Positions 39,801 to 59,177 of a stretch of DNA of 64,000 nt are shown here, in pieces. Every line of letters begins with the position of its first letter. Position 1 is the stretch's first letter. Under the pieces are notes generated by a model that did no database searches, was not told the DNA's origin, and saw nothing but the letters and a program-made list of their open reading frames with translations. Made by a program: the position numbers and the translations under genes. The stretch comes from Tropicimonas sp. IMCC34043 (GTDB lineage: Bacteria > Pseudomonadota > Alphaproteobacteria > Rhodobacterales > Rhodobacteraceae), in assembly GCF_003390845.1 (NCBI RefSeq), contig NZ_QMEK01000006.1, forward strand, positions 1 through 64,000, in the 5' to 3' direction.

Positions 39801-39915
39801 CGGGGAAGTTCTGCACGTCGAGACGGTTGAAAGCCATCAACCCGGTGATGGTGAGCAGCACAAATGCGAGGATTGGCGGAACCGGGTTTCGGATTGCCCA
39901 AGCCGAGAAGTTCAT
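36838..39915 (-). CDS. RND multidrug efflux pump inner-membrane transporter (AcrB/HAE1 type)
   Basis: The 1025-residue pump has 12 membrane segments and two large periplasmic loops. It starts AWAIRNPVPPILAFVLLT. Later motifs are LVVGILVDDAIVEVENIERH (proton-relay Asp pair region of TM4), GLLLLMGIVSKNSILLVDYA (TM10 region) and RARPIIMTTVAMSCGMLPAAL. It exports drugs or solvents across both membranes with the adaptor and outer-membrane protein encoded upstream in the same unit. Its ATG overlaps the adaptor stop by four bases. Many cues (an asymmetric N-terminus, an adaptor with a single hairpin) resemble the MexF/TriC-like HAE1 group. Substrate unknown. Confidence 0.95.
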   Translation of the reverse strand: MNFSAWAIRNPVPPILAFVLLTITGLMAFNRLDVQNFPDMSLPTIEISASLEGAAAAQLETEVARKIEDQLTGFDQLDSVTTTITDGSVSISVAFQVGKDVQTALDEVQSAVDQAKDDLPTEMNAPTVSKSTLAGSPLVTYVISSEKLDDAELSWFLDNDLKRALMAVDGVGEVGRLGGIDREIRVELDPLLLNGLGLSASDVNSRLDEVQRDLSGGKAEVGNASQSVRVLAASDSVEELRASPIPLPNGSWVRLDELGTITDTHADLSSLAYLNGEPVIAAQIKRLTGYSDLAVTENVRTAMEAFSAKNPHVKITEAYNTILPTEQNYHASMSMLYEGAAIAVLVVFLFLWEWRGTLLAAIALPLSIIPTFLVMDYLGYSLNTVTLLALSLVVGILVDDAIVEVENIERHMQMGKPAYQASMEAADEIGMAVIATTFTLIAVFLPTAFMSGVIGIIFKQFGITASVAVFFSLLVARLVTPMLAAYTMKAKPPEEHKDGLVMRSYLAVIRGALRHRWIPVIGVIAFFGATLLMLGNLSTGFFPASDDSQTQINVTTAPGTTIAETDAISRRVSEAIVGVDHVQAVFQATGSASDGGMGGGSSTSSVTSATIVVDLTNIDDRDVSQTQIEAEIRRALENIPGARIEVGSGGNGTELQITLSGDNSATLEQAASDLSEEIRGKINGIGNVTSSASIQSPEIVITPDLARAASYGVTSKGISDAVRVATSGAYDSALSQLNLPERQIPIRVTLAEQARQTLDQIKLIPVAGTNGNVTFGTIADISLGSSPSEIDRLDRSRNVSVTIELNGRSLSSVNSEVQQLSSYKNLPSGVSFVEQGDLKRQSELFASFATAMALGIFCVYAVLVLLFDDFLQPITILTALPLALGGALFPLVVTGTSFSMPAVIGLLLLMGIVSKNSILLVDYALLARKSGMNRFDALVDACHKRARPIIMTTVAMSCGMLPAALSLVEGDPSFRQPMATVVIGGLITSTLLSLLVIPVVYTFVDDFEHFVTRRFRAPSQTRHAE

Positions 39916-41153
39916 TGGACGGCCTCCTTGTCAGCTTGGTCCGATGCCTCGGCTCGTTGTTGCGCCCCGTCACCGGCGTCATCGGTTCCATCGCCCGATG
40001 CGGCGACCGCCGCATCGTCGCTGGACGGCTCCGGCGCAACCACCCGCACGACAGAACCTTCGGACAGAAAGGCCCCGCCCGATTGAACGACCTTCGCATC
40101 CGCAGGCAGATCGCTGGTTATTTCGACCCGGTCGTCCTGACGCCGTCCGGTCTCGACCCTGACCCGCGAAACGGTCGGTGTCTCGCCCTCTACCAGCGTG
40201 AAGACGTAGGAAAACCCGTCCTGCATCACGATGGCGGAAGACGGAACCGAAAGCGCCTCACGCGAACCGACCTGGAACACGCCCGAAATCATGATGCCGG
40301 TCTTGGGCTGAGGGCTGTTGTCGGGCGCCGTCAGCGAGACATAGACGATCACCCGTCCGTTGCTTTCCGAGGCGCTGGGAGAGATGCGCCGAACCTCACC
40401 GGAGATCTCGCCGAAAGGGGTGGGAATGCGCACCGGCGTGCCGACTTCGATATTGCGCAGTTGTTTGAGAGGCACCTCGGCCTGCCATTCCACCTTCCCG
40501 TCGCGAACGAGCCGGAACAACTCCTGCCCCTCGCTGACCACATCGCCGATGGCGGCGTTGCGCGCGCTGATCACTCCACCGGTGACAGCGGTCACTTGCG
40601 TGTACTCCAGATCGAGCTTGGCCGAGGCAAGTTGGGCTTCAGCGGAGGCGACATCCGCCTTCGCCTTGCGTTCGGTGGCATAGTATTCGGCGGCCTGTTG
40701 CTTCGAGATCGCGCTGCCGCCGCTGAGCTGGCGCGCGCGGTCCGCTTCAGCGGTCGCCTGGTCGAGAGACGCCCTGGCCGATTCCAGCGAGGCCTCGAGC
40801 TGAAGAATGCTGTTTTCCAGCGACTCGCGCGAGAGTTCGGCGAGCGGGTCATCCTTGGCCACGGTGTCGCCCACGTCGGCATTGACCGACTTGATCATCT
40901 GACCGCCGATCTGGGCGGAAATAATCACCTCCTGCCAGGCGGCAAGCCAGCCATTGGCCTCCACCTCCACCGGCCAGACGTCCGTCTGGGGTGCGATCAC
41001 GGCGACGGTGAGCGCCGCAGCACTCTGCGTCGCCTCTGCCTCTGCCTCGACCGCGGTGCCGGTTCCCGTGCTCTGTGGCCGCAGGAAGACCACCGCGCCG
41101 GCGAGGGCGACAGCGGCGATGCCCGCAATGAGGAGGTTTCGTTTTCCAGTCAT
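39912..41153 (-). CDS. RND efflux periplasmic adaptor (MFP/HlyD family)
   Basis: The 413-residue protein has an N-terminal membrane anchor or signal (LLIAGIAAVALAGAVVFL), a biotinyl-lipoyl-like half motif ANGWLAAWQEVIISAQIGGQ, a coiled-coil hairpin about residues 100-170, and the second lipoyl half GVISARNAAIGDVVSEG. It links the inner-membrane pump to the outer-membrane channel. The C-terminal 40 residues are rich in Ala, Asp and Ser and probably disordered. It lies 22 bases after the channel gene and overlaps the pump gene. Confidence 0.92.
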   Translation of the reverse strand: MTGKRNLLIAGIAAVALAGAVVFLRPQSTGTGTAVEAEAEATQSAAALTVAVIAPQTDVWPVEVEANGWLAAWQEVIISAQIGGQMIKSVNADVGDTVAKDDPLAELSRESLENSILQLEASLESARASLDQATAEADRARQLSGGSAISKQQAAEYYATERKAKADVASAEAQLASAKLDLEYTQVTAVTGGVISARNAAIGDVVSEGQELFRLVRDGKVEWQAEVPLKQLRNIEVGTPVRIPTPFGEISGEVRRISPSASESNGRVIVYVSLTAPDNSPQPKTGIMISGVFQVGSREALSVPSSAIVMQDGFSYVFTLVEGETPTVSRVRVETGRRQDDRVEITSDLPADAKVVQSGGAFLSEGSVVRVVAPEPSSDDAAVAASGDGTDDAGDGAQQRAEASDQADKEAVQ

Positions 41154-41175
41154 GTGTCAGCTTTCAATTTGGCGC

Positions 41176-42522
41176 TCAGACCGGGCGCGGTGGCACCCAG
41201 CCACCGCCCACTGCCTTGTAAAGCGCGATCCATTGTACCAACACGGCCTGGCGCTGGCTGATGCGGGTGATCCGTGCGGACTGCAGAAGCCTGCGGGCCT
41301 CTTCCCGGTCGAGCAGCGAGGTGCGCCCGGCCTTCCAGTCTTCGTTCATTGCGTCGAAATAGGCTTGGTACTGTTGAACGAGAGTTTCGGCACTGGTCAG
41401 ATTGGTGCGAGCGGCGGCGAGGCGTGTCAGGGCGTCCTCGACTTCGCCGACCGCGGTCAGCACGACTGAACGATAGCTCTCGGCCGCCGTCAGGGCATCG
41501 GCATTCGCTGCGCGGACCGAAGCCCGCAATGCGCCCCCGTCGAGGATCGGCACCGACAGCGCCGGCCCGAACGACCAGGACTTCGGACTCGAAAGCGTGA
41601 CATTGCCATCAATCGTCAAGGAGGGATACAGGTTTGCCTCGGAAACCTTCAGGTCCAGTAGCGAGGCGGCAAATCTCTCTTCCTCTGCGAGCACGTCCGG
41701 GCGTTGGCGCAGCATGTCTGCAGGGACCGAAGAGACCCGAAATGGTTTCGTCGCAGGCAGACCGCCGCCCTTGGAGAGGATCGTATCGATCTGCGCCCGG
41801 GAAACGCCCACCACTTTCGTGAGACTTTGCAGCGCTACCTGACAATCGGCCCGTTGGTTGGTGAGGTTGATCTCCGCGCTCGCCACGGTGGCCTGCGAGA
41901 GCGACAGGTCGGAGGGAGCGCTCAAACCCGCGTTCACCAAGCTGCGCGTTGCATTGAGGGTTTCCTGCTGCGAGGAAAGCGTGCTGCGGTATTCGGCTTC
42001 GGCAAGCTTGCAGGCACGGTAGTCGACGTATCCACTTGCGACCTCGGCCGCGAGCGAGATGTAGGAGCCGGCGTAGGAAATCTCGTCGGCCCGGGCGCGC
42101 GTGCTGTCGGCGAGGGCAGTGTTGGCGTTCCGGCCGAGGATATCGACCTCCCAGCTGGCATCCACCAGTTCCGTGCGGCTCTTTGTGCGTCCGACGAGCT
42201 CTGCATCGCTGAGGGTCGCCGAGGCCGTTCCTGTCACATTGGGATAGAGATTGGCCGAACTCTCGCCGGCCAATGCTCTGGCTGCCATGACACTTGCCGC
42301 GGCGCTTCGCAGATCGGGGCTGTTTGTCCGAGCGAGCGAAAGCAGCTCCGTCAACTGCGCGTCACCGACGCGGGACCACCAGTTCACATCCAGCGTCGCG
42401 CTGGCCGAGGGTGCTGACGTCGCGTAGCGGGCCGCAACGGCTTGCCGGGCATCGGGCCGGATCAGCGGCACGCTGCACCCGGCAAGCAGGCAGGCACCCA
42501 GAAGGGTGAGGGCAGTCTTCAT
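41176..42522 (-). CDS. Outer-membrane efflux lipoprotein (NodT/OprM family)
   Basis: The 448-residue protein has a lipoprotein signal with lipobox LAGC at residues 13-16. The body shows NodT-type features: DVNWWSRVGDAQLTELL, SWEVDILGRNANTALADSTRA, AEVASGYVDYRACK and RRPD-like RQRPDVLAEEERFAAS. It forms the trimeric outer-membrane duct of the pump. It is the first gene of the minus-strand efflux operon and divergent from the two-component genes at 42660, which probably control it. Confidence 0.92.
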   Translation of the reverse strand: MKTALTLLGACLLAGCSVPLIRPDARQAVAARYATSAPSASATLDVNWWSRVGDAQLTELLSLARTNSPDLRSAAASVMAARALAGESSANLYPNVTGTASATLSDAELVGRTKSRTELVDASWEVDILGRNANTALADSTRARADEISYAGSYISLAAEVASGYVDYRACKLAEAEYRSTLSSQQETLNATRSLVNAGLSAPSDLSLSQATVASAEINLTNQRADCQVALQSLTKVVGVSRAQIDTILSKGGGLPATKPFRVSSVPADMLRQRPDVLAEEERFAASLLDLKVSEANLYPSLTIDGNVTLSSPKSWSFGPALSVPILDGGALRASVRAANADALTAAESYRSVVLTAVGEVEDALTRLAAARTNLTSAETLVQQYQAYFDAMNEDWKAGRTSLLDREEARRLLQSARITRISQRQAVLVQWIALYKAVGGGWVPPRPV

Positions 42523-42659
42523 GGGGCGGCTCCGAAACTTCTCGGGTTTGTATGCGTTCGGAGGATGTTAAGTTGTGTCAAGTTTCGGCAAAGTTTTTAA
42601 AAGTCGGCTATCCGGACCGGGGGGCGGCGCTAAGATCGCCGTGAAAGGACGAGCCGAAA

Positions 42660-43352
42660 ATGACGACTGTATTGTTTATTGACGATGATGCCGAACTTAC
42701 CGGCCTGCTCGGCGAGTATCTGGAACAGGAAGGCTTCAAGGTCGCGATTGCCGGGGACGGCGAGCGGGCCCTGGGGCGCATCGTGGATGCCCGCGCCGAT
42801 ATCGTTGTCCTGGATATCATGATGCCCAAAGTCGACGGGCTGCAGGTGCTGCGCCGCATTCGCGCGGAAAGCTCGGTGCCGGTGCTGATGCTGACCGCCC
42901 GCGGAGACGAAGCCGACCGGATCGTGGGACTCGATCTGGGAGCCGACGACTACCTTGCCAAACCGTGCTCTCCGGCCGAACTCATTGCGCGCATCCGCGC
43001 GATCCTGCGCCGCACCCTTCCGGTCGAGGGGCAGGATAGCGAGAGCTCGAACGTGCAGCAAGAGGGGCCGCTCAGCATCGATCGCGAACGCCGCCTCGCC
43101 ACCTGGGCCGGCAAGCCCATCGCACTGACCGGAGTCGAGTTCAACATTCTGGACGTCCTTATCGCACAGACCGGACGGCCGGTATCGCGGGCGGATCTTT
43201 CCCAGCAGGGGTTGGGTCGGCCGCTTGCGGCCTATGACCGCGCCGTCGATGTGCATGTCTCCTCGATCCGACAGAAGATCGGTAACTTCGCCGACGGCCG
43301 GTCGCCCATTCAGAGCCTTCGTGGCGTGGGCTATGTCTTTGTCAAGGAATGA
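42660..43352 (+). CDS. OmpR/PhoB-family response regulator
   Basis: The 230-residue protein has a receiver domain with acidic pair Asp8-Asp9, phospho-acceptor Asp52 in VVLDIMMP, Thr79 in LMLTARG and Lys101 in LAKP. A winged-helix effector domain follows (RRLATWAGKPIALTGVEFNILDVL; DRAVDVHVSSIRQKI). The layout and the PCSPAEL loop resemble CpxR-like regulators. It is divergent from the efflux operon with 137 bases between, and followed by its kinase. It likely activates the pump genes under envelope or drug stress. Confidence 0.93.
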   Translation: MTTVLFIDDDAELTGLLGEYLEQEGFKVAIAGDGERALGRIVDARADIVVLDIMMPKVDGLQVLRRIRAESSVPVLMLTARGDEADRIVGLDLGADDYLAKPCSPAELIARIRAILRRTLPVEGQDSESSNVQQEGPLSIDRERRLATWAGKPIALTGVEFNILDVLIAQTGRPVSRADLSQQGLGRPLAAYDRAVDVHVSSIRQKIGNFADGRSPIQSLRGVGYVFVKE

Positions 43353-43358
43353 CCGATC

Positions 43359-44606
43359 ATGATCTTGCGGGTCTTTGCCTTCATCTGGGGGGCGACGCTC
43401 GTTACCCTGTTGTTGTTTCTGTCGCTGATTTTTTTCGTGGACCTGACGCCACCCAAGGATGTCTGGCGAAAAGCAGAACTGGAGATCCTCGAACAGGAAC
43501 TGGCGCTGATCTACGACAGAGAAGGTCCAGCAGGGACTCGGGCGTTCTGGCAACAGATCGCGCCCGCCCATCCAAGCTACGGGCTCGAGGCCGACAGCTC
43601 TTGCACGCACCCGAGCGCAATCGGCGTGTCGGGCGACGGCTGCTTGCGGCTGGTCGACCTGGGCTCCGCAGATGACACCCTGGCCTTGTTGCGACCCGTC
43701 ACGCTGCCGCTGATCCTGGGCGCCGTGGTCAGCGCAATGATGGCGATCTTCCTCTCGCGCTGGCTGACCCGTCCGATCCGTGAGGTGAGCCGCGGCCTCA
43801 AGGCGATCGCGGAGGGGCATCTTGAAACCCGAATGCCGGCAAGCCTGCGCACCTCCAATCGCGAGATGCAGGAGCTCGGCAAGGATTTCGATCTCGCCGC
43901 CGAGCGATTGCAGGCACTTTCCGAAGGCCGCAACCGGCTATTCCATGATATCTCCCATGAGATCCGCTCACCGCTCGCCCGGTTGCGCGCCGCGGTCGGG
44001 CTGATCGAGATCAACCCTGCGCGCGGCTCTTCGCTGGCCGGCCGGATGGAGGGGGACATTGCCCGGCTTGACCAACTCGTGAACGAGATCCTCACGCTCG
44101 CCCGGCTCGAACGTGGCGAAAGGTTGGGCGAGTTCCAGAGGATCGATCTGCTCGATCTCGTCGAGAACATCATTGCGGATGCAAATTTCGAGGGCCGCGT
44201 CCGCGATGTCAAAGTGCAATATTCTGGCGCCAACACTCTGGAACTGCACGGAAATCTGGAGCTTCTTCACCGCGCCTGCGAGAATGTCATCCGCAACGCA
44301 CTCGCCCATTCGCCCCAAGGCGGGGTCGTGGCCGTGACCGGACGGCTGGCTGGAGAAACGATCGTTCTTGAAATTGCGGATCACGGCGTGGGTGTGCCCG
44401 AGGCCGATCTGAAAAACATATTCAACCCCTTCGTACGGGTCGACGAGGCGACCCCTTCGGTTGGGATCGGCCTCGGCCTCGCCATTGCCTCAAGCGCCCT
44501 TCACTCCCACGGCGGTTCCATCACAGCGAGAAATCGTCAGCCCCACGGCCTGCTGATCGAAATTGTTATCCCAACGCTCATAGGCAATGCATCGTCGGAG
44601 TTGTGA
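43359..44606 (+). CDS. Sensor histidine kinase
   Basis: The 415-residue kinase has two membrane segments (about residues 5-27 and 115-133) around an 85-residue periplasmic part. A HAMP domain follows (LSRWLTRPIREVSRGLKAIAEG), then a DHp domain with phospho-His200 in FHDISHEIRSPLAR. The ATPase domain has an N-box (CENVIRNALAHSP) and G-boxes (DHGVGVPE, VGIGLGLAIA). It is coupled to the response regulator gene with a 6-base gap. Two Cys residues in the periplasmic part (82 and 95) might form a disulfide. Signal unknown. Confidence 0.93.
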   Translation: MILRVFAFIWGATLVTLLLFLSLIFFVDLTPPKDVWRKAELEILEQELALIYDREGPAGTRAFWQQIAPAHPSYGLEADSSCTHPSAIGVSGDGCLRLVDLGSADDTLALLRPVTLPLILGAVVSAMMAIFLSRWLTRPIREVSRGLKAIAEGHLETRMPASLRTSNREMQELGKDFDLAAERLQALSEGRNRLFHDISHEIRSPLARLRAAVGLIEINPARGSSLAGRMEGDIARLDQLVNEILTLARLERGERLGEFQRIDLLDLVENIIADANFEGRVRDVKVQYSGANTLELHGNLELLHRACENVIRNALAHSPQGGVVAVTGRLAGETIVLEIADHGVGVPEADLKNIFNPFVRVDEATPSVGIGLGLAIASSALHSHGGSITARNRQPHGLLIEIVIPTLIGNASSEL

Positions 44607-44785: not shown

Positions 44786-45884
44786 TTATCGCGTATCTGA
44801 ACGATAATCCGCGCCTGTGAGCGGGGTTTGCCCTCTACAATCAGGTGTACCCCCCCATACCAGCGTCGCCATCGTCTCGCGGTTCTTGTCGGCAAGGTTC
44901 GCCGACCGCGAATAGTGCCGCGCCATCGATGGCGTTTTCTGCCCCAAGAGGTCCGCGATGCGCCGTTTATCAAGTCCCGCCTCGCGCAGCGTCGTTGCGA
45001 CCGTGTGGCGCAGACCCTTGAGCGTCAGGCCGGGGGCGATCAAGCCGTCCGCTTCCAGCCCGGTCTTGAAGCGGTGCCAGACAGTGGAAAACCCGTTGTA
45101 GGTCCATGCCGCGCCCTGCGAACTGGCCAGCACGGTGGCGGCTTCATGCGCAGGGATGCTGTCGAGCGCGGCCCGCAAGGTGAGGCTGACCGGAATCGCC
45201 ACCTCCCCCGTCTTGCCGCGCACGCCCCAGATCGTATCGCCCTCGATCTGGTCCTTGCGCAGCGTCAGCGCGTCGGAAGGATCGAGGCCGGTGTTCATCA
45301 TCAACGCCAGTGCCACGCGAACGTGGGGCTTGGCGCGGGAAAGGACGATGTCGCGCTCCTCGATGGTCCAAGGCCGGTTGGCATAGGCGCGGTCGCGGGG
45401 ACGGCGCTTGGGGATCACGTCCTTGGCGTAGTTCGCGGCGACCAGCCCTCGAGGGACGGCATGGCGAAACACCTCGCTCAGCAAAGTGCGCACCATGTTG
45501 GCCCGCCGCCAGCCGATCTTTTTCGCGGCCTTGTCATGTATGCCCGCGATCAGTGGGGTGCCGATCACATGGACGGGCGTGTCGCGGATGGGCGCAAGGA
45601 AATCCGCGCATTTGCGGTAATCGCGGCGTGTGGCCTCGGCCAGATTGGCGAAATGCCCTGTCTCGAAATAGCCCTTGATTAGCCCGCCCAAAGTGCCCGC
45701 GCGGGCCTTTCTGCTTCTGCGCCATGGCGATGGCGCGGATCGCCTCGCACTCTGCCAGAAACTCGGCCGACCCCAGCGGCGCTTCGGTCAGGTCGATCTT
45801 GTGGCCCGTCGCGCGGTGGTAGCAGCGCATCCGGCCGTGACGATCCTTGAATATCTTGAACCCTTTGACGCGCACATGGGTCAT
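44786..45884 (-). pseudogene. Tyrosine integrase, frameshifted
   Basis: Two overlapping minus-strand frames together give one phage/island integrase. The first runs from the ATG at 45884 (MTHVRVKGFKIFKDRHGRMR ... IRAIAMAQKQKGPR). The second continues from about 45695 (LGGLIKGYFETGHFANLAE) to the end, with GLRHTVATTLREAG (box II) and the nucleophile Tyr in ARHYSRSAN. The join lies in the CG-alternating stretch near 45698-45706; restoring two bases there gives the usual RAGTLGG linker. The box I region reads NTGLDPSDAL, lacking the usual Arg after GL. The gene is probably inactive. Its start overlaps the stop of the excisionase remnant. Confidence 0.8.
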
Positions 45885-46066
45885 CACAGCCGGTCCAGGA
45901 TGTCGTCGCGCGTCATCTCGACATGGTCGGCCTTCATAGTGTCGATCCAGCGGTCGATGTCGCGCCGGTCCCACAGCAAGGTGCCGCGGGCCAGCTCCAC
46001 GGGTCGCACCGGGCAGCTTGCCTTGAAATGCTTCATGGCGAGGCCCGTGTAGCTGGCGGCCTCGGC
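45884..46066 (-). pseudogene. Excisionase-like/AlpA-type DNA-binding protein, N-terminally truncated
   Basis: The minus-strand frame reads AEAASYTGLAMKHF, then CPVRPVELARGTLLWDRRDI and DRWIDTMK. This is the pattern of small winged-helix excisionase/AlpA-like proteins that precede integrases. No start codon precedes the domain, because the frame runs straight into the oppositely oriented repressor fragment. A restart at the ATG at 46036 would give about 50 residues without the first helix. Its stop overlaps the integrase start. Confidence 0.6.
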
Positions 46067-46384
46067 ATGTCGCAGCGCGCCTATCAGAGCTACGAGACCG
46101 GCAAACGCTCTATTCCTGTCGAGGCACTGGTCGACATGCACCGCCAGTTCGGCACGGACCTGAACTGGATCCTGCTGGGGGTCGATGCTGTGCGCCCGGG
46201 CCATGACCTGGCCGCGCTGGAGGGATTCGAGACAGCGCTCGACCGCCACCTGAGCGCGACCGGCGTCCGCCTGAAAAGCGAGAAGCGCGGGGCGATCGTT
46301 GCGCGCTGGTACCGATCGTTCCTGGAAGGGAAGGAAATCCCCATGGACGACGTTCACACCTGGATCGAACTGCTGAGAGAATGA
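46061..46384 (+). pseudogene. XRE-family phage-type repressor, N-terminally truncated
   Basis: From LGMSQRAYQSYETGKRSIPV, followed by EALVDMHRQFGTDLNWILLG, the frame matches the second half of an XRE helix-turn-helix and the typical FGxDxxWLLxG end. About 70 residues then follow to a stop at 46384. The first helices of the domain are missing. Upstream sequence is the opposite strand of the excisionase remnant, so the gene was cut at about 46061-46066. A start at ATG 46067 would give 105 residues with a broken DNA-binding domain. Confidence 0.6.
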
Positions 46385-46778: not shown

Positions 46779-49628
46779 GTGTCTGTCCCGCGCCTGTCCT
46801 GTCCGATCTGTTTGCGCCGAGAGGCCGGGTTGATCCCGGCGCCGCGTCATGTGGCGAATTGGCATCAGCTGAACGGGCCGGAACAGATGGCGATGCTGGC
46901 CGAGTTGGGGGCTGCTCTAGGGCGCGGAACCCCGGGTTTTGTCGCTTCTTCAGCCCATGACCATTTCCATCTTAAGGAGGCGTCCGGATCGCGTCTGACG
47001 ACCGGGGGGCGCGACCCGCTTCTGCCGTTGCTCGCCGAGCGACTGGACACAGCGCAGTCTGTCGATCTAGCCACTGCCTTTGCCATGGACAGCGGTGTGG
47101 CGCTGCTCGAACCTTGGTTCCGCGAGTTGCTGGCGCGGGGTGGTCGACTGAGGATTGTCGTGGGCGATTACCTCGACACGACCGATCCAACCGCCTTGGC
47201 CCGCCTCTTGGACCTAGAAGGGGCGGAGCTGTTCGTGTTCGAGACAGACAGTCTCAGTTTTCACCCTAAAGCCTGGTTGTTCCGCGCGACAGATGCACGG
47301 GGGGCAGCGATTGTCGGCAGCTCGAACCTCTCGCAGTCGGCGCTGACCGAGGGCGTAGAGTGGAACCTGCATTCCGAAGATGCAGCTGACAGTGTCGCCG
47401 CGGCTTTCGAAGAGCTGGTGGCACGCTCAGAGGTAAAGCCCCTGACCGCCGCCTGGATAGATGCCTATGCCAAACGCCGCAGGACACGGCCCATGCCCGA
47501 GTTCACCGCCCGCGTGGTGGCCGAGGAAGGGCCACCGCCAGAGCCGCATTCGATCCAGCAAGAAGCGCTGGATGCCCTATCGCTAAGCCGATCGAACGAC
47601 CACCGCGCCGGTTTGGTCGTGCTGGCAACCGGACTGGGCAAAACCTGGCTGGCCGCCTTCGATACGATCCGCGCCAAGGCGGGCCGCATTCTCTTCGTGG
47701 CCCATCGCGACGAGATCCTCACCCAGGCGATGGCAGCCTTTCGCAAGGTGCGGCCGGAGGCCAAGCTGGGCCGCTACACAGGTACCGAGAAAGAGCCGGA
47801 TGCGGAAATCCTCTTTGCCTCGATCCAGACGCTAGGCCGCATCGGTCACTTGCGCCAATTCGACCGCGACCATTTCGACTATATCGTCGTGGATGAATTC
47901 CACCACGCTGCCGCCAGCACCTACCGGAAACTGATCTCCCATTTCACGCCCCGGTTCCTTCTGGGTCTGACCGCCACGCCCGACCGGACGGATGGTGCTG
48001 ACATGCTGGGGTTATCCGGCGAAAACCTTGTCTACCAATGCGACCTGTTTCGCGGGATCGACGCGGGGCATCTCTCGCCGTTCCACTATTTCGGTGTGCC
48101 CGACGATGTCGACTATGCGCAGATCCCCTGGCGGTCTGGGCAATTCGACCCAACCGCTCTCGACGCTGCCTTGGCGACCGAGGCGCGGGCGCTGAATGCG
48201 CTGGAACAGTATCGCAAGCGCGCAACCGGCCCCGCGATCGGGTTTTGCTGTTCGATGCGCCATGCCGACTACATGGCGGATTATTTCTGCGCTGCCGGGC
48301 TGAGGGCCGTCGCCGTGCACTCGGGCCAAAGCTCCGCCCCGCGAGCAAGCTCTCTGGCCGCGCTAGGTAGGGCCGAGATCGATGTCCTGTTCGCGGTCGA
48401 CATGTTCAACGAAGGCGTCGACGTTCCCGAGATCGGCACCGTCCTGATGCTGCGCCCCACCGAAAGCGCGATCATCTGGCTGCAGCAGCTTGGCCGCGGT
48501 CTGCGCCGCGTCGAAGGCAAGGTGCTGCAGGTGATCGACTATATCGGCAACCATCGCAGCTTTCTGACGAAGGTTGCCACCCTGTTGCAGGCCGGCGCGG
48601 GGGATCGCTCGATCTCGACCAAGCTGGAGGCGCTTCAGGCCGGTGAGTTCCAGATGCCGAAGGGCTGCGAGATCACTTATGAGCTGCAGGTCATCGACAT
48701 CCTGCGCAATCTCCTCCGCCCGAAGGAAGGCGCGGCAGAGCTTGAAGCTCTTTATATCGACTTCCGAGACCGGAACGGCATCCGTCCCACGGCTGTCGAA
48801 GTCTTCCGCAACGGCTTCGATCCCCGCGCATCGGGCCACGGCGGCTGGTTCGATTTCGTCCGCGATATGGGGGATCCCTTGCCCGAACGTTCTTTTGCCA
48901 ATCACGGTCGTCTCTTGAGTGAATTGGAACGGCCCAGGGGTTTGTCCCGATCCGCCTTGACCGGATTGCGCGACGTCGTAGCCGGGCGGCAACCGAGCGA
49001 TGGCGCGTCAGAGCTCGCCTTCAACCCGCACCTGGTCCGAGGCAGCGACGGCTTTCGGCTGGCGCGACCGGACACCTCCGGCGAACTGGAACCGCTTGTG
49101 CGCGAGTTGGTCGAATGGCGCTTGGCGGAAACGCCCATCGTGCGCGAGGCAGCCGAAGCATCCTCGACCTTTGTCGGCAAGCCACAGGCACTGGAGCATT
49201 GGCAGCGCTACTACGTTCCGGACATCGCCGAGTTCTTTGGCGAAGAGTACAAGCTAAACCTCTGGCGAACCGGGATGAAGGCGCTGCCAGAAAAGAAGAT
49301 CATGATCCTTCTTGCCAATGTCTCGACCCAGGACCTGACCTACAAAAACGCATTCCTCAGCCCGTCCCGGCTGAAATGGTTCAGCCAAAACCAGACGCGG
49401 CAGGACGGCAAGCATGGCCGGGTCATCAGCGGTGAGGAAGGCCACGAGGTGCACTTGTTCACCCGGCGAGGGAACAAAGTGAATGGCAAGGTCAATCCGT
49501 TCATCTATTGTGGTCAGCCAAAGTTTGTCGACTGGACAGGAGAGAAACCGATCGAAGTGACCTGGGATTTGCCGGTTCCCGCCCCGCGCGAACTTTGGGC
49601 AGAGCTTGGAATTCCAGACAATGACTGA
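46779..49628 (+). CDS. HKD-nuclease/SF2 helicase fusion with DUF3427 C-terminus
   Basis: This is a 949-residue multi-domain protein. Residues 8-66 recall a shrunken HIT domain (CPIC, HVANWHQLNGPEQ, AHDHFHL). Residues about 75-235 are a phospholipase-D-like nuclease (COG3886 type) with FHPKAWLFR and IVGSSNLSQSAL. The helicase has motif I ATGLGKT, motif II VVDEFHH, motif III LTATPDR, and motifs V/VI FNEGVDVPEIG and QQLGRGLR. The C-terminal part (LTYKNAFLSPSRLKWFSQ ... KVNPFIYCG) matches DUF3427. It should bind and cleave or remodel nucleic acid. The start is a GTG with AAGGA upstream. The neighbouring gene also joins an HKD nuclease to a helicase. I infer phage or plasmid defence. Confidence 0.85.
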   Translation: MSVPRLSCPICLRREAGLIPAPRHVANWHQLNGPEQMAMLAELGAALGRGTPGFVASSAHDHFHLKEASGSRLTTGGRDPLLPLLAERLDTAQSVDLATAFAMDSGVALLEPWFRELLARGGRLRIVVGDYLDTTDPTALARLLDLEGAELFVFETDSLSFHPKAWLFRATDARGAAIVGSSNLSQSALTEGVEWNLHSEDAADSVAAAFEELVARSEVKPLTAAWIDAYAKRRRTRPMPEFTARVVAEEGPPPEPHSIQQEALDALSLSRSNDHRAGLVVLATGLGKTWLAAFDTIRAKAGRILFVAHRDEILTQAMAAFRKVRPEAKLGRYTGTEKEPDAEILFASIQTLGRIGHLRQFDRDHFDYIVVDEFHHAAASTYRKLISHFTPRFLLGLTATPDRTDGADMLGLSGENLVYQCDLFRGIDAGHLSPFHYFGVPDDVDYAQIPWRSGQFDPTALDAALATEARALNALEQYRKRATGPAIGFCCSMRHADYMADYFCAAGLRAVAVHSGQSSAPRASSLAALGRAEIDVLFAVDMFNEGVDVPEIGTVLMLRPTESAIIWLQQLGRGLRRVEGKVLQVIDYIGNHRSFLTKVATLLQAGAGDRSISTKLEALQAGEFQMPKGCEITYELQVIDILRNLLRPKEGAAELEALYIDFRDRNGIRPTAVEVFRNGFDPRASGHGGWFDFVRDMGDPLPERSFANHGRLLSELERPRGLSRSALTGLRDVVAGRQPSDGASELAFNPHLVRGSDGFRLARPDTSGELEPLVRELVEWRLAETPIVREAAEASSTFVGKPQALEHWQRYYVPDIAEFFGEEYKLNLWRTGMKALPEKKIMILLANVSTQDLTYKNAFLSPSRLKWFSQNQTRQDGKHGRVISGEEGHEVHLFTRRGNKVNGKVNPFIYCGQPKFVDWTGEKPIEVTWDLPVPAPRELWAELGIPDND

Positions 49629-49694
49629 TCGCCAGAACTCATCGTCACAAGCCGTCGCCGGTAAGGCGATCGATAATTGGCTCTAGGCAAACAG

Positions 49695-52600
49695 ATGGAG
49701 CGGCAGGGACTGATTTCGCGCTTCTTCTCTCGGACCAGCGATGGTGACCGGCAAGAGAACGCGTCAGAAGGGCCGCCTCCGCAGGGCCACGATGCCTGGG
49801 GTGACAACGCGACCCGTCCGGTCCACGCCCTGGTTAAGTCGGTGCTACAGGAGCCGCACTGTCTGATCGTTACCGGGTACCAGGATTTCTTGTCTTCCCT
49901 GACGATCGTGCTTGATGCGGTCCATGATCTTGCAGAACGGCCAGAGGGCAGCATCCGCATCGTTTTCGGCTCGAACACGGACGGTCGCAGACAGTTTGGG
50001 GGTGGCGGGCGGTCAGTCGCGCAGGAAGCCCGACAGTATTTTCTCGGTGCTCGGGGCCTGTCAGTCGTCGATTTGGCTGACCTTCGCGCCGTTCTCGCGA
50101 CGGATGCTATCGAGCGTGGCATCATCCAGTTTCGCGCTTTCGATCCAGCGCTTGCCGAAGCGAAGCTGGGTCGCAGACCGCCTATGCTGCATGCAAAGCT
50201 CATCGTTGGCGAAGGCTCTGCTCTATCGGGGAGTGCGAATTTTTCAATCAACGGTCTGCGCCGTAACCTCGAATTCATGGACGATGCACATGCTTGGCCG
50301 GACATCGCGAGTGCAAGGCGCGCTGCCGCAGAACAATACTGGGAGATGGGGCGCGACTGGACGGAGACAGCGTTGGAGATCCTGCGCTCGCTCATCCGGC
50401 TGGTTACACCCGAGGAGGCGGTCGCGAGGACCGTTCACGAAGCCACCACCTTCACACCTTGGCGCGTGGCTGGAAACACGAGTGCAGGCCGGCCGCCGCA
50501 GCCATTTCAGGCAGACTTGGTCTATGAGGCCGCGGGAACCGTTTACGAACATGGCTTTGCTTTCGTCGAGGCACCGACCGGGGCGGGAAAAACGGACATC
50601 GGAAAGCACCTGGCAACCGTGCTGCCGGTCAGCCATGCGCAGACCGTCTTTTCCTGGGGTGAGCGAGCAGATCAGCAGCGCCTCGGTTCGCTCGCCTTGA
50701 TCCCCGCCAGCGTTTTGAGAAACTGGACGTCGAATGCCCCCGCAAATTTCAAGCCGATCAAGCACAGCCACTTGTCCCGCCAGAAAAAGGACGCGGCCGC
50801 CGAGTTGGATGAAATCAACCGCGCCGTCCGCTCGTCAGCGTCGATGATCGTGGATGAAAGCCACCGGTTAAGCTCGCGTTATCTCGCGCCCTCGGCGCGC
50901 TCGCTGGTGTTCGAACGAAGCCCGGCCATTTGGACGGCCTGTCTTTCGGCCACGTTGATGGGCAACCAAGGGCTCGATGGTCTGCTCGCTTTCCATGAAA
51001 AGCGCGCCTCGATCTATGTGCCGCCGGTGATCACAGATCAGATCAACCAGCATATGGCCAAAGTTCGCGCTCGCGGAGAACTTGTCCGGCATCTGGATCA
51101 GGTCAATCGTCGCATCGAGGCGCAGGGTGTGCAGGAAGACCTATTTCTTAGTGCTGAGACCCTCGGGGAAGAGGTCGCTGCCATCGAACGCCAGCTGGAA
51201 GCAGACGGCCTACAAATCAGAGCGTTGCAAGAAGGCCTCGCGGATGCCCTCGCGCCATATGTGGTGCGCCGCCAGCGTGCCTGCATTGGGGAAAGCGCCA
51301 ACAGAAGAAGCGGGGCATTTGTTTACCCGTTAACCCGCAGCCATCGCGAAGACACTGCGCTCACCGATCAACAACGCCAGATCATTTCGCGGATCAAGAC
51401 CCTGGCCGAATGCATCACGACTGGGATCACGCTTGTGTCCGCTGATCCGCAACGCGCAGGCCAGACAGAGATCAAGTTTCACGATAAGTCGCGAATTCAC
51501 ATACGTAATTTCCTGGCACTGCTGCGCGCATCAATCATCTTCGCGCGCGAAGAATGGGCGCGAGAGCGCGACAGCGATGCAGACCAGCGAGGACGCGCCT
51601 CAATCGGCGAGAACCTACGACGTGCCGAAAGGCAGAACATGCGCAGACTGGCGGTTCCTGAAGGTGTTCTTCCGGAGGAACTGTCGCCCGAGGTCGACGA
51701 CTCCCAGACACCGATTTGCGACAGGATCACGCACCTTCTGAACCATGCGGGCCTCGATAGCATCGACGAGGCACGCGCCGAGGTGATGCGCGGTATTCTG
51801 CGCAAGCACGGCCATGCAATCTTCCTTGCGGAACGAGTTGGTGTGCTCGAGGTGTACGCGCGCCTTCTGGCGGGACAGCGAGGCCGAGGTCCCGAGGTTT
51901 TTGTGGTCGCCCCAGGCGCTCGTATCAAACCGGGCAAGAAAATGCATCACATCCGATCCGGGGCCGAAGCGCAGGAATACTTCGGGATCGACGGGAAGCA
52001 TGTCGATACGATGAAGCCGCGGGCGATGTTCCTGACCTTCCAGATGGCGGAGGGCATCAACCTCCAACTCGCGCCTGCACTTGGGATCATCGGAGTGACG
52101 TCGGACGTAAAGAGCCTGATCCAAGGTTTGGGTCGGATCGACAGGATCGACAGCCCGAACTCCCGCATCCACTACCACACATTTGATCTGCCGGGCCTTG
52201 TTCTGTCGTCCGATCACAAGGCACGCGCCCGTGTTGCCAGCATCGCCTTACTTTCTGGGGTCGGTGCGGATGACCTGCCCTCTGAGCTGGTTGAGTTTGC
52301 TGCCGGAGATTTGACTGACCTGGTCCTCGATCAAATCAAGAAGCCAAGGATTTTGCGACCTGGAAACTACTTCGATCAGATCGAGGGGCTGCGCCGAGCG
52401 GTGCCTCTAGAGGTATTCGAACGTGTGCAAAGCGCCAATCCGCGCGGCCTGTGGGGTGCAGAACTGTGCCTGCTTGCATCACGACAACCCGTGACGATCC
52501 TGCTTCTTGGGGGGCGTACTGGTAGCACCCAAGACCCAACCGTCTTTCCTCCTCGCCTTCTTGCTGTGCACGACGATGGTGGGCGAGCAGAGATCATCGG

Positions 52601-53150
52601 AGATCAGATAGAGGCTGCCCGGCTTCTCTCGGATGCCTATGCGGAAACGCGTCGTCTCTATCGTCATGACGTTCGCCCCGAATTTTCCCAGGTGACGGCA
52701 ACCTTGGACCGTTTGCGCGGCACTCTCGGTCAACTGACCCACTGGGATATCCGCCCAGCACGCACAGTTTCACTGCTGGCTTCCCTTGCAGGCTTCTTGA
52801 CCGGCCGTGCTGTGACAGACGGCGGCCAAGGGCAGTTTGGCGATCTGACCCTGCCAGCGCTCGAGAAACTGGCCGAAGCCTGGGCGCACGAACTGGATGT
52901 CTTCTGGATTGAAGCAAAGGAAGCCGTAAGCCAGCGCAGCGCATCAGGTGGCGAAATCCCCGATTACCTTGGCATTGATGCGATCTACAGGGCCTTTTGC
53001 GCGCAACCCGACGACGTCCGCGACGCCGTCCGCGTTCGGATGGATGATCTGATTGCAGCGTGCAGGGTTCTGTCAGAAGGGGATTCCGTGGACATCTTAA
53101 GCCGCGTGGCGGTGATCTTTGAAGCACAGCGTAAACACGATGGTGGCTAG
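49695..53150 (+). CDS. Second HKD-nuclease/SNF2-like helicase fusion
   Basis: The 1151-residue protein has a PLD-like nuclease in its first 230 residues (HALVKSVLQ; MLHAKLIVGEGSALSGSANF, with Glu in the place of the usual Asp). The helicase has motif I EAPTGAGKTD, motif II MIVDESHRLSS, motif III CLSATLMG, and, after a long insert, EGINLQLA and the arginine-finger motif IQGLGRIDRID. The C-terminal 300 residues are unassigned. Start is uncertain: ATG 49695, in-frame TTG 49677, or an out-of-frame ATG at 49621 that overlaps the previous stop and ends after 21 codons. It lies 66 bases after the first helicase gene and is surely co-transcribed. Confidence 0.82.
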   Translation: MERQGLISRFFSRTSDGDRQENASEGPPPQGHDAWGDNATRPVHALVKSVLQEPHCLIVTGYQDFLSSLTIVLDAVHDLAERPEGSIRIVFGSNTDGRRQFGGGGRSVAQEARQYFLGARGLSVVDLADLRAVLATDAIERGIIQFRAFDPALAEAKLGRRPPMLHAKLIVGEGSALSGSANFSINGLRRNLEFMDDAHAWPDIASARRAAAEQYWEMGRDWTETALEILRSLIRLVTPEEAVARTVHEATTFTPWRVAGNTSAGRPPQPFQADLVYEAAGTVYEHGFAFVEAPTGAGKTDIGKHLATVLPVSHAQTVFSWGERADQQRLGSLALIPASVLRNWTSNAPANFKPIKHSHLSRQKKDAAAELDEINRAVRSSASMIVDESHRLSSRYLAPSARSLVFERSPAIWTACLSATLMGNQGLDGLLAFHEKRASIYVPPVITDQINQHMAKVRARGELVRHLDQVNRRIEAQGVQEDLFLSAETLGEEVAAIERQLEADGLQIRALQEGLADALAPYVVRRQRACIGESANRRSGAFVYPLTRSHREDTALTDQQRQIISRIKTLAECITTGITLVSADPQRAGQTEIKFHDKSRIHIRNFLALLRASIIFAREEWARERDSDADQRGRASIGENLRRAERQNMRRLAVPEGVLPEELSPEVDDSQTPICDRITHLLNHAGLDSIDEARAEVMRGILRKHGHAIFLAERVGVLEVYARLLAGQRGRGPEVFVVAPGARIKPGKKMHHIRSGAEAQEYFGIDGKHVDTMKPRAMFLTFQMAEGINLQLAPALGIIGVTSDVKSLIQGLGRIDRIDSPNSRIHYHTFDLPGLVLSSDHKARARVASIALLSGVGADDLPSELVEFAAGDLTDLVLDQIKKPRILRPGNYFDQIEGLRRAVPLEVFERVQSANPRGLWGAELCLLASRQPVTILLLGGRTGSTQDPTVFPPRLLAVHDDGGRAEIIGDQIEAARLLSDAYAETRRLYRHDVRPEFSQVTATLDRLRGTLGQLTHWDIRPARTVSLLASLAGFLTGRAVTDGGQGQFGDLTLPALEKLAEAWAHELDVFWIEAKEAVSQRSASGGEIPDYLGIDAIYRAFCAQPDDVRDAVRVRMDDLIAACRVLSEGDSVDILSRVAVIFEAQRKHDGG

Positions 53151-55239: not shown

Positions 55240-56565
55240 ATGGCACGCATCGCACGCGCGGGCCGCCGCACACGCCAAAGCAAGACAGCCGTCTGGTACG
55301 AAAGGGCGCGGGTGGGCACGCTGACCCGCGCGACGGATGGGGCCATCGCCTTCTCCTACGATCCTGATTGGATTGCGTCCGAGGCCGCTTTTCCCGTCGC
55401 CAGCGCCCTGCCGCTGACCAAGCTCAAATGGCAGGGCGATCCGGTTGTCGCCGCCTTCGACAACCTCTTGCCCGATGCCGAAGGCGAGCTGCGCGAGAAG
55501 ATCGCCGCGCGTGTCGGAGCGCAAGGCAAGGATGTGTTCTCGCTGTTGTCTGTGCTGGGTCGCGACTGTGTCGGTGCGCTGCAATTCCTGCCGCTGGACG
55601 AAGCCCCGTCCGAACAGGACATGCAGTATCGCGTCATTTCGGAAGAAGAGATGGTCGCAGACCTGAAAAACCTCGCCGCCGCACCGCTCGCCCTGGGTAA
55701 CGACGAGGATTTCCGGATTTCCATCGCCGGTGCGCAGGAGAAGACGGCCTATCTGCGGATCGACAGGCAGTGGGCCAAACCGCGGGGCATCACGCCGACC
55801 AGCCATATCTTCAAGACGCCCATGGGCCTGATTCCCGGCCCTGAACAGATCGACCTGAGCGACAGCGTCGAGAACGAGTTGTTCTGCATGACCCTGGCGC
55901 GTGACATCGGCCTGCCCGTCGCGCATGTCGAAAAGCTCACCCTTCCCGGGCAGGTCGTGCTGTCGGTCGAACGGTTCGATCGCGTCTGGCACGGCGACAC
56001 CCTGAAACGCCTGCCGCAGGAAGATATCTGCCAGTCTTTGGGCTACCCTTCTGCCATGAAATACCAGAGGCTGGGCGGCCCCGGCGTCGCGCAGATCATG
56101 GAGCTTCTGCGGGAATCCGACACGCCCATCGAGGACCGGGAGACGTTCTTCCGGGCGCAGATCTTCTTCTTCCTGATCGGGGCCTCGGACGGGCATGCCA
56201 AGAACTTCAGCCTGCGTCTGGGGCGTCGGGCGCGATTCACGCTCGCGCCCCTCTATGACATCCTGAGCGTCGCCCCGATCGTCCGCGCGGGCCGGTTGCA
56301 GCGCAAGCGCTACCGCCTCGCCATGTCGATCGATGGCCATTACGGCATCGACGAAATCGTGCCGCGCCACTTCGAGGCCGAGGGGCGCGCGGCGGGTCTG
56401 CCCAAGGGCCGCGCCTTGGAGCTGTTGCAGGACATGGTAGATCGGCTGGGCCCTGCGCTGGAGCGGACGCTTCTGGCGGTGGGCGATCAGGTCCCGGCGG
56501 CGGTCAGCGAGCCGATCGCAAGCGATGCGATCCAGCGGGCGGCGCAGATGCGGGACCTGCGTTAG
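55240..56565 (+). CDS. hipA: HipA-like serine/threonine kinase toxin
   Basis: The 441-residue protein has the HipA N-terminal subdomain (DWIASEAAFPVASALPLT, FDNLLPDAEGELR), the Gly-rich SIAGAQEKTAYL, the SVERFDR segment, and the catalytic loop GASDGHAKNFSL with its Asp and Asn, then PLYDILS with the metal-binding Asp. E. coli HipA phosphorylates glutamyl-tRNA synthetase and causes growth arrest. The catalytic residues look intact, so it is probably active. The gene ends tail to tail, overlapping by a few bases, with the mobC-like gene of the other strand. Confidence 0.92.
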   Translation: MARIARAGRRTRQSKTAVWYERARVGTLTRATDGAIAFSYDPDWIASEAAFPVASALPLTKLKWQGDPVVAAFDNLLPDAEGELREKIAARVGAQGKDVFSLLSVLGRDCVGALQFLPLDEAPSEQDMQYRVISEEEMVADLKNLAAAPLALGNDEDFRISIAGAQEKTAYLRIDRQWAKPRGITPTSHIFKTPMGLIPGPEQIDLSDSVENELFCMTLARDIGLPVAHVEKLTLPGQVVLSVERFDRVWHGDTLKRLPQEDICQSLGYPSAMKYQRLGGPGVAQIMELLRESDTPIEDRETFFRAQIFFFLIGASDGHAKNFSLRLGRRARFTLAPLYDILSVAPIVRAGRLQRKRYRLAMSIDGHYGIDEIVPRHFEAEGRAAGLPKGRALELLQDMVDRLGPALERTLLAVGDQVPAAVSEPIASDAIQRAAQMRDLR

Positions 56566-58504: not shown

Positions 58505-58553
58505 GGATTGAAAATCCTCGTGTCGGTGGTTCGATTCCGCCCCCGGGCACCAC
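58505..58553 (+). repeat. 3' fragment of tRNA-Phe (attachment-site copy), inverted
   Basis: These 49 bases are identical to the part of tRNA-Phe from the anticodon stem to one base past the CCA end. The intact gene is on the minus strand at 59103-59177, so the two copies are inverted relative to each other with about 550 bases between. The 5' part of a tRNA is not present here. A 3' tRNA fragment is the usual footprint of integrase-mediated insertion, but attachment sites are normally direct repeats. Confidence 0.8.
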
Positions 58554-58982: not shown

Positions 58983-59102
58983 GCTGGAAAAAGAGAACGC
59001 GCGGCGGGCGAGGATTGTCAAACCTGTCCCCGAAAAGCGTCAAACCCGATCCGAGTAAGGACCAGACACGACCACAGAACCCAACCATTTCAGCTTGTTA
59101 AG

Positions 59103-59177
59103 TGGTGCCCGGGGGCGGAATCGAACCACCGACACGAGGATTTTCAATCCACTGCTCTACCCCTGAGCTACCCGGGC
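59103..59177 (-). tRNA. tRNA-Phe (anticodon GAA)
   Basis: The 75-base gene folds with acceptor stem GCCCGGG/CCCGGGC, D-arm GCTC/GAGC, anticodon loop TTGAAAA (anticodon GAA), T-arm GGTGG-TTCGATT-CCGCC and an encoded CCA end. There is one T-T mismatch in the anticodon stem. It lies at the boundary of the mobile island and follows yacG on the same strand. Confidence 0.95.

Follow-up and report, generated by a model that had tools for sequence, protein, structure and literature searches.

Several described systems lie close to the genes reported here. The type IV enzyme SauUSI is a single chain in the order PLD nuclease, SF2 helicase, coupler and SRA domain. Its own PLD domains hold two chains together as a homodimer, which translocates and shreds the DNA between its target sites (PMC7913695). 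HKD nucleases joined to SNF2 helicases are known as effectors of BREX-related Type-2 systems (PMC12839542) and from a COG1743-DUF499 operon (PMC7641849). PbeA and CxC-ABC systems contain an HKD nuclease fused to an SF2 helicase (PMC10853773), and in NgoAVII and CglI a PLD nuclease works with an SF2 helicase-like ATPase, with R and H as separate subunits (PMC7913695). Here we describe two genes, A and B, in the first 64,000 nucleotides of contig NZ_QMEK01000006.1 of Tropicimonas sp. IMCC34043 (assembly GCF_003390845.1); this whole stretch is called the window. Both genes are intact, adjacent and on the same strand, and each fuses an N-terminal HKD nuclease to an SF2 helicase. We consider it fairly probable that A is a SauUSI-family type IV enzyme, that B is a separate HKD-SNF2 nuclease-motor, and that the pair forms a two-gene defence cassette in which the helicase(-nuclease) partner can be exchanged.

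Architecture and selection of genes A and B

A first-pass annotation of the window had described two long adjacent genes 66 bases apart, each with an N-terminal HKD nuclease and helicase motifs. The domains were confirmed by Pfam matches in A and by invariant residues in B. The GTG start of A is backed by homology from residues 1-4 onward in relatives, and the likely start of B, ATG 49695, leaves a gap of exactly 66 bases after the A stop codon (Table 1). The alternative listed start of B, TTG 49677, would leave 48 bases and give a product of 1157 residues, from which the residues of B are numbered here. The ratio of nonsynonymous to synonymous substitution rates (dN/dS) was about 0.03-0.11 for both genes wherever the synonymous rate (dS) was measurable; for two of the comparisons between B genes and the window, dS was not obtained. 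Such ratios mean strong purifying selection on A and on B, so the finding is not due to chance. B is present as one copy in its own genome.

Pfam matches of A above the cut-offs were ResIII (8e-38), Helicase_C (4e-10) and DUF3427 (2.5e-12), the last in line with the DUF3427-like character first proposed, and a PLDc_2 match (6e-6, 26.6 bits) lay slightly below the cut-off of 27. A matched the PADLOC model mREase_IV with E=8.7e-117. Against PDB chain 7clg, the single sequence gave E=2.4e-87 and a 15-row profile E=2.8e-123, spanning profile positions 63-930 of 960. The PDB title of this chain is 'Putative helicase'; we identify it as SauUSI because its alignment numbering (H119, K121, E126, Y831, D858, W868; 953 residues) equals that given in PMC7913695. 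The homology is chain-wide, with PLD, SF2 ATPase, coupler and DUF3427/SRA following one another in SauUSI order within a single chain. By homology and architecture, A can be assigned to the SauUSI family. The earlier view that the pair belonged to no named system thus does not hold for A; it stands for B and for the pair as such, neither of which is named in the libraries and literature searched.

In the PLD motif of A, H162, K164 and G180-N183 were invariant in 15 aligned rows and present in 22 rows. The SauUSI motif is H(X)K(X)4E, with an acidic residue (PMC7913695), at whose position A has Arg169. A second change was found in the base pocket. Asp858 of SauUSI is the carboxylate that faces the flipped cytosine (PMC7913695), and such an SRA carboxylate is held responsible for the preference of modified cytosine over thymine (PMC6212794). 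In the 22-row alignment this position is Asn in 9 of 9 close-clade rows, which include N857 of A, and Asp in 13 of 13 other rows; the loop just before it is four residues shorter in the nine close-clade rows. A does not share the Asp858 carboxylate that goes with the specificity of SauUSI for 5-methylcytosine and 5-hydroxymethylcytosine. Because Asn replaces Asp858, A was filed by homology and architecture rather than base specificity. With Asn in place of the SRA carboxylate and a shortened loop beside it in the clade of A, it is conceivable, though on balance rather unlikely, that A and B make up a two-enzyme type IV system in which A reads modified thymine or uracil, such as 5-hydroxymethyluracil, rather than modified cytosine, and an exchangeable helicase-type partner, B or an SF2/UvrD double helicase, finishes the DNA.

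The first ~70 residues of A hold only traces of CxxC, APRRH and HxHL. They are possibly a degenerate HIT-like domain, as suggested by resemblance to the HIT motif (HxHxH); no Pfam match was found for this region at E<=5 in the three proteins searched.

All Pfam matches of B were weak and below the cut-offs (PLDc_2 8.5e-4). Across an alignment of 25 sequences, the window included, the HKD residues H172, K174, G185, S186 and N188, the Walker A residues G302, G304, K305 and T306, and D393, E394, H396, Q816, G819, R820, D822 and R823 were invariant. B had been called SNF2-like with a DESH motif, and the searches agree. With the 25-sequence profile and a limit of E<=0.1, RapA chains were the only PDB sequences found, the best at 5e-5 across 53 profile positions that surround motifs V-VI, and the predicted model of B had RapA as its first fold match (E=2e-11). 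Because RapA is the sole profile match and the first fold match, assignment of the B motor as SNF2-type is supported. The 279 C-terminal residues gave no match in a fold search of the PDB (best E 1.3) and are likely a candidate sensor or target-recognition domain. B fits no family in the libraries searched: the best PADLOC match was DpdK (4e-7), confined to the HKD region, and NCBIfam matches were likewise weak. Among viral contigs one contig matched B, and no match was found in phage records. B represents an HKD-SNF2 family that has no name as yet and whose known members come mainly from Rhodobacterales.

Recurrence of the pair and exchange of its partner

A genome scan made with a four-row B alignment returned 42 loci (loci and genomes of our surveys are labelled L and G). 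By their names we take these to be Rhodobacterales, save L012, a proteobacterial metagenome-assembled genome (MAG), and L045, a Nitriliruptoraceae MAG with a weak match. The B genes fall into two groups, B-I at 56-95% to the window and B-II at about 33-37%. In 11 of the 16 close (B-I) loci, the gene directly upstream of B is A (L008-L017 and L022; in L014, A is split in two frames). In the DNA examined, A was not found beside B in the other 5 close loci nor in the 26 others, several of which are short or partial. The gaps between A and B are 33-66 bases in 13 listed pairs, all on the same strand, order and orientation are invariant in the pairs seen, and the adjacency is present in different genera. 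A plasmid of Neotabrizicola shimadae (NZ_CP069374) carries the pair across its record ends. The only other plasmid records with an A relative at >50% over its length, L005 and L006, are both without B.

Among 390 genomes of the order, close A genes (>=76%) were found in 8, of which 6 have B directly downstream and 2 (G493 and G581) have a giant gene in the place of B. These 8 belong to a tally of 22 genomes at E<=1e-60 that further holds G398, 11 distant loci and 2 partial ones (G368 and G652), which were not used. Full-length B-I was found in 9 of the 390, six with A adjacent; the wider tally of 33 genomes also includes B-II genes, fragments and weak helicase-motif matches, which were left out of the B-I count. 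In a class-wide sample of 289 genomes, a search with B as the single query protein found it in one, its own. The co-occurrence in other genomes that the first-pass annotation called for was thus found.

The giant has 1710 residues in L104 and joins an SF2 helicase (PADLOC DpdF, 1.4e-112) to a UvrD-type helicase; it lies at L104:1414-6546 (-) and L105:1322-6454 (-). Its first 280 residues contain motifs that may be DEDD-exonuclease-like. The A tree places both A genes that have a giant as partner within the B-partnered clade, at a weakly supported fork (80/85). The partner of close A genes, B or giant, can be exchanged with little change in A itself. SF2 (DpdF-like)/UvrD genes of about 1650-1860 residues also occur by SauUSI-like genes in L112, L113, L117, L119, L121 and L122. 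In these 6 of the 11 distant A loci, the giant adjoins either A or the small methyltransferase gene of A, on the same strand downstream in L121 and L122 and divergently in the other four. The methyltransferase gene was found in 8 of the 11, some of whose contigs end nearby; it encodes about 196 residues directly upstream of the distant SauUSI-like A (L112:7239-7829) and matches PADLOC mads_2 at 2.4e-12 in L112.

The two genes also occur apart. In the B tree, L021 and L023, which have B without A, lie inside the A-paired clade. In L018, and likewise in the viral contig L002/L050, B-I stands just downstream of a type I restriction-modification operon (hsdR-hsdM-hsdS), and in L019 it stands just upstream of GmrSD. 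Between the window and L013, L015 and L017, dS was 0.74, 0.81 and 0.95 for A and 4.9, not computable and 2.4 for B. Because dS differs between the two genes, they did not always travel together, and they appear to have partly separate histories. Most full-length B-II genes encode exactly 1122 residues and have no A alongside (L025-L039, L041, L042, L049 and L004; for example L027:8899-12267). Their DNA homology to L027 mostly stops at the stop codon or no more than a few bases from it, and the upstream DNA is common for up to ~600 bases in the closest cases.

These findings bear on the proposal, made in the first-pass annotation, that A and B are one obligate two-subunit enzyme in which each chain gives half of a shared PLD active site. 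Each chain has a single HKD motif, and the genes recur as close same-strand neighbours. However, A and B each occur without the other, which makes a shared site unlikely; they have diverged to differing degrees between clades; an unrelated helicase can occupy the place of B; and SauUSI is a homodimer (PMC7913695). We consider a shared-site enzyme quite improbable. What remains of the proposal is a recurrent pair on mobile DNA whose members both resemble restriction-type defence enzymes.

Another reading is that A needs a helicase-type enzyme to finish the DNA it has cut, B and the giant being alternatives for the same job. All eight close-A genomes have one or the other directly downstream on the same strand, and the giant recurs at 6 of the 11 distant loci. 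These eight genomes, however, represent one clade, full-length A relatives stand with neither partner in G398 and on plasmids L005 and L006, 5 of the 11 distant loci have no giant in the DNA examined, and the nuclease of the giant is a candidate only. Such a requirement is possible, though less likely than not.

We favour the two-gene cassette with an exchangeable partner, building on homology, motifs, selection, recurrence, partner exchange and defence neighbours. By homology to SauUSI, A would bind a modified base with its SRA-type C-terminal domain and translocate by its ATP-driven SF2 motor, and two A chains, joined as a homodimer, would make a double-strand cut with their PLD domains. B would assemble separately, as an HKD nuclease carried by a double-strand DNA motor of the SNF2 type; it would probably homodimerize as well, by way of its one HKD motif, and may be triggered through its C-terminal domain as the likely sensor. 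In this division of labour A would detect and cut, and B would serve as a plug-in that attacks or degrades invading DNA in parallel with A or after it, for an anti-phage effect. The plug-in can be exchanged, since the giant stands in for it next to A genes that are closely alike, and B could also work without A.

Several points weigh against this reading. No A was seen in the DNA examined of 31 of the 42 scanned B loci, so the pairing could be mere co-cargo. The 11-of-16 figure comes from a search with B, A having been sought alone only in the 390 genomes and the plasmids, and the loci share descent, so that the counts are not independent events. The acidic PLD residue of SauUSI is missing in 22 of 22 SauUSI-like relatives aligned; since all rows are without it, it was not taken as family-defining. 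The full B model is of middling confidence (mean predicted local distance difference test score, pLDDT, 67.7), and the helper role of B is putative. Finally, the nine defence neighbours scanned by PADLOC at E<=1e-5, six beside or near A+B and three near B-II, were picked by hand, and two of the six (L014 and L015) had no PADLOC match; by Pfam, the L014 neighbour is an iSirtuin-nSTAND protein. The other neighbours of A+B matched PD-Lambda-4_A in L009 (E=0), ThsB in L016 (9.6e-50), and SIR2 and HerA, two proteins, in L003. Near B-II, L025 gave an LmuB-like and L004 a GajA-like match; L027 gave none, its neighbour being a PIN protein by Pfam.

Islands at tRNA-Phe

Our best reading of the surroundings is that the A+B cassette often sits on tRNA-Phe-targeting islands among known defence genes. 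Immediately before A+B, a 17-base tRNA-Phe 3' end (at most one mismatch) was found in L013, L014, L016, L017 and L022, and the same end precedes A and the giant in L105; it is lacking in L015 and L104. This makes the left edge of A+B an island end in those five loci, out of six that belong to one clade. L013-L016 and L022 share a block around the two genes that starts ~216 bases ahead of A and stops 46-59 bases past B, and the sequences on either side of it differ.

It is also conceivable, though unlikely, that A and B are two defence genes with no connection other than their common island, their pairing having no functional meaning. Each gene occurs without the other and other defence genes sit alongside, and because the constant left edge is an island end, shared edges alone prove no unit. 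Set against this are the limits of the shared block, shortly before A and shortly after B, with differing surroundings beyond, and the constant order and orientation of the two genes.

Since homology stops sharply at the edges, the A+B block was examined as a transposable unit and rejected: terminal repeats at the edges do not exceed 8-11 bases, and a duplication was not visible. Solitary B-II genes were considered in the same way; their edges were read by eye only.

The island of the window had been described as decayed, and this is what we found: its integrase lies in two frames, and in comparison with L010 and L011 it lacks ~540 bases at the apparent start of a repressor gene (Table 1). The integrase is one continuous frame of 400 residues in L012; the L010 match is likewise in two pieces. 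L010 and L011 have the integrase stretch, A+B and the HipA-like gene in common with the window. L115, another carrier of the HipA-like gene, holds a distant A without B. The inverted 49-base copy of the tRNA-Phe sits 548 bases from the tRNA gene. Island ends usually give direct copies, so a rearrangement is likely. The island is worn and the A+B pair is intact. Left of the island, window positions 36838-44606 hold an apparent RND-type efflux operon with a response regulator and a sensor kinase, as read from translations.

Table 1 Coordinates of the A+B pair, its motifs and the surrounding island features in the window.
Feature	Position	Strand	Basis or remark
Gene A, SauUSI-like type IV restriction enzyme, 949 residues, GTG start	46779..49628	+	Open reading frame list, domain searches
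A N-terminal ~70 residues, CPxC ... APRHV ... HxHL	46779..46988	+	Alignment of 22 A homologues
A PLD motif H162-x-K164 ... GSSN 180-183	47262..47327	+	A alignments, 7clg alignment
A helicase core ATGLGKT 283-289, DEFH 372-375, QQLGRGLRR 569-577	47625..48509	+	Domain search, alignments
A C-terminal DUF3427/SRA-type target recognition domain	49182..49607	+	Pfam, alignment, 7clg profile
A N857 at the SauUSI Asp858 position	49347-49349	+	Alignment
Gene B, HKD nuclease, predicted SNF2-type helicase, C-terminal domain without assignment	49695..53150	+	
B HKD motif H172-x-K174 ... GSAN 185-188	50190..50240	+	Alignment
B Walker A APTGAGKT 299-306	50571..50594	+	Alignment
B motif II DESH 393-396	50853..50864	+	Alignment
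B motif VI QGLGRIDRID 816-825, RapA/SNF2-like	52122..52151	+	Motif, profile
B C-terminal domain, residues 879-1157	52311..53150	+	Fair local model, mean pLDDT 79.1
Island integrase, interrupted frame, pieces 44786-45691 and 45534-45974	44786..45974	-	Open reading frame list, Pfam
Junction 46061-46065, then apparent truncated repressor (HTH_3)	46061..46384	+	Pfam, comparison with L010 and L011
HipA-like gene	55240..56565	+	95-97% in L009, L010 (partial, contig end), L011 and L115
Exact inverted 49-base copy of the tRNA-Phe 3' part (att-type)	58505..58553	+	Partner copy 59102-59150
tRNA-Phe, target site of the island family	59103..59177	-	

Comparison with known systems

The first-pass annotation had named DISARM as an example of defence systems in which HKD nucleases and SF2 helicases occur. 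We take its mark to be DrmB with a DUF1998 (MZB) domain. No match to PF09369 was found in the one genome of the window, compared with matches in 8 of 14 controls, and DISARM was rejected. In contrast to NgoAVII and CglI, A and B each hold nuclease and ATPase in one chain. To the PbeA and CxC-ABC models A scores 3.2e-25, far worse than to mREase_IV. RapA, the best fold and sole profile match of the B motor, is not known to have an HKD nuclease, unlike B.

B resembles the helicase of BREX-related Type-2 systems, having its HKD nuclease N-terminal to a Swi2/Snf2 helicase in the same domain order (PMC12839542), so that B could be the effector of such a system (HKD and Swi2/Snf2 helicase, DUF499, N6-methyltransferase) that has lost its partners. 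No such partner was seen beside B, however, the relatives of B sit alone or in other settings, and the C-terminal domain of B has no fold match. DUF499 was not found among the 8 window proteins scanned, and its sole match in the genome lies ~200 kb from B; DUF3780 and N6-methyltransferase were also absent from these 8 proteins, no genome-wide search being made for them. The distant DUF499 stretch (G000:C13:252815-253558) is in a frame of 1230 residues (L135:9306-12998, -) with an integrase-like stretch, apparently a broken gene on another island. Membership was rejected for this locus, although the architecture is alike, and we regard descent of B from such a system as very improbable.

SauUSI is the closest match to A, with the same single-chain order and homology over nearly the whole chain. 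A differs from it in ~70 added, HIT-like-looking N-terminal residues, in the acidic PLD residue it is without, and in its Asn at Asp858, next to which its loop is shorter by four residues than that of the other aligned relatives; close-clade A genes also differ in having B or the giant next door. Descriptions of SauUSI present it as a barrier against foreign DNA that consists of a single polypeptide; here the close clade always comes with a large helicase-type partner in the sampled genomes. The exchangeable partner suggests that type IV restriction may have a modular build. A direct prediction on base specificity follows from the Asp-to-Asn change and, if true, could extend type IV restriction to thymine-modifying phages. 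Type IV restriction and HKD-SF2 effectors are kinds already known. In the parts of the literature searched, no SauUSI-like gene is described as having an HKD-SNF2 gene, or an SF2/UvrD giant, for its partner.

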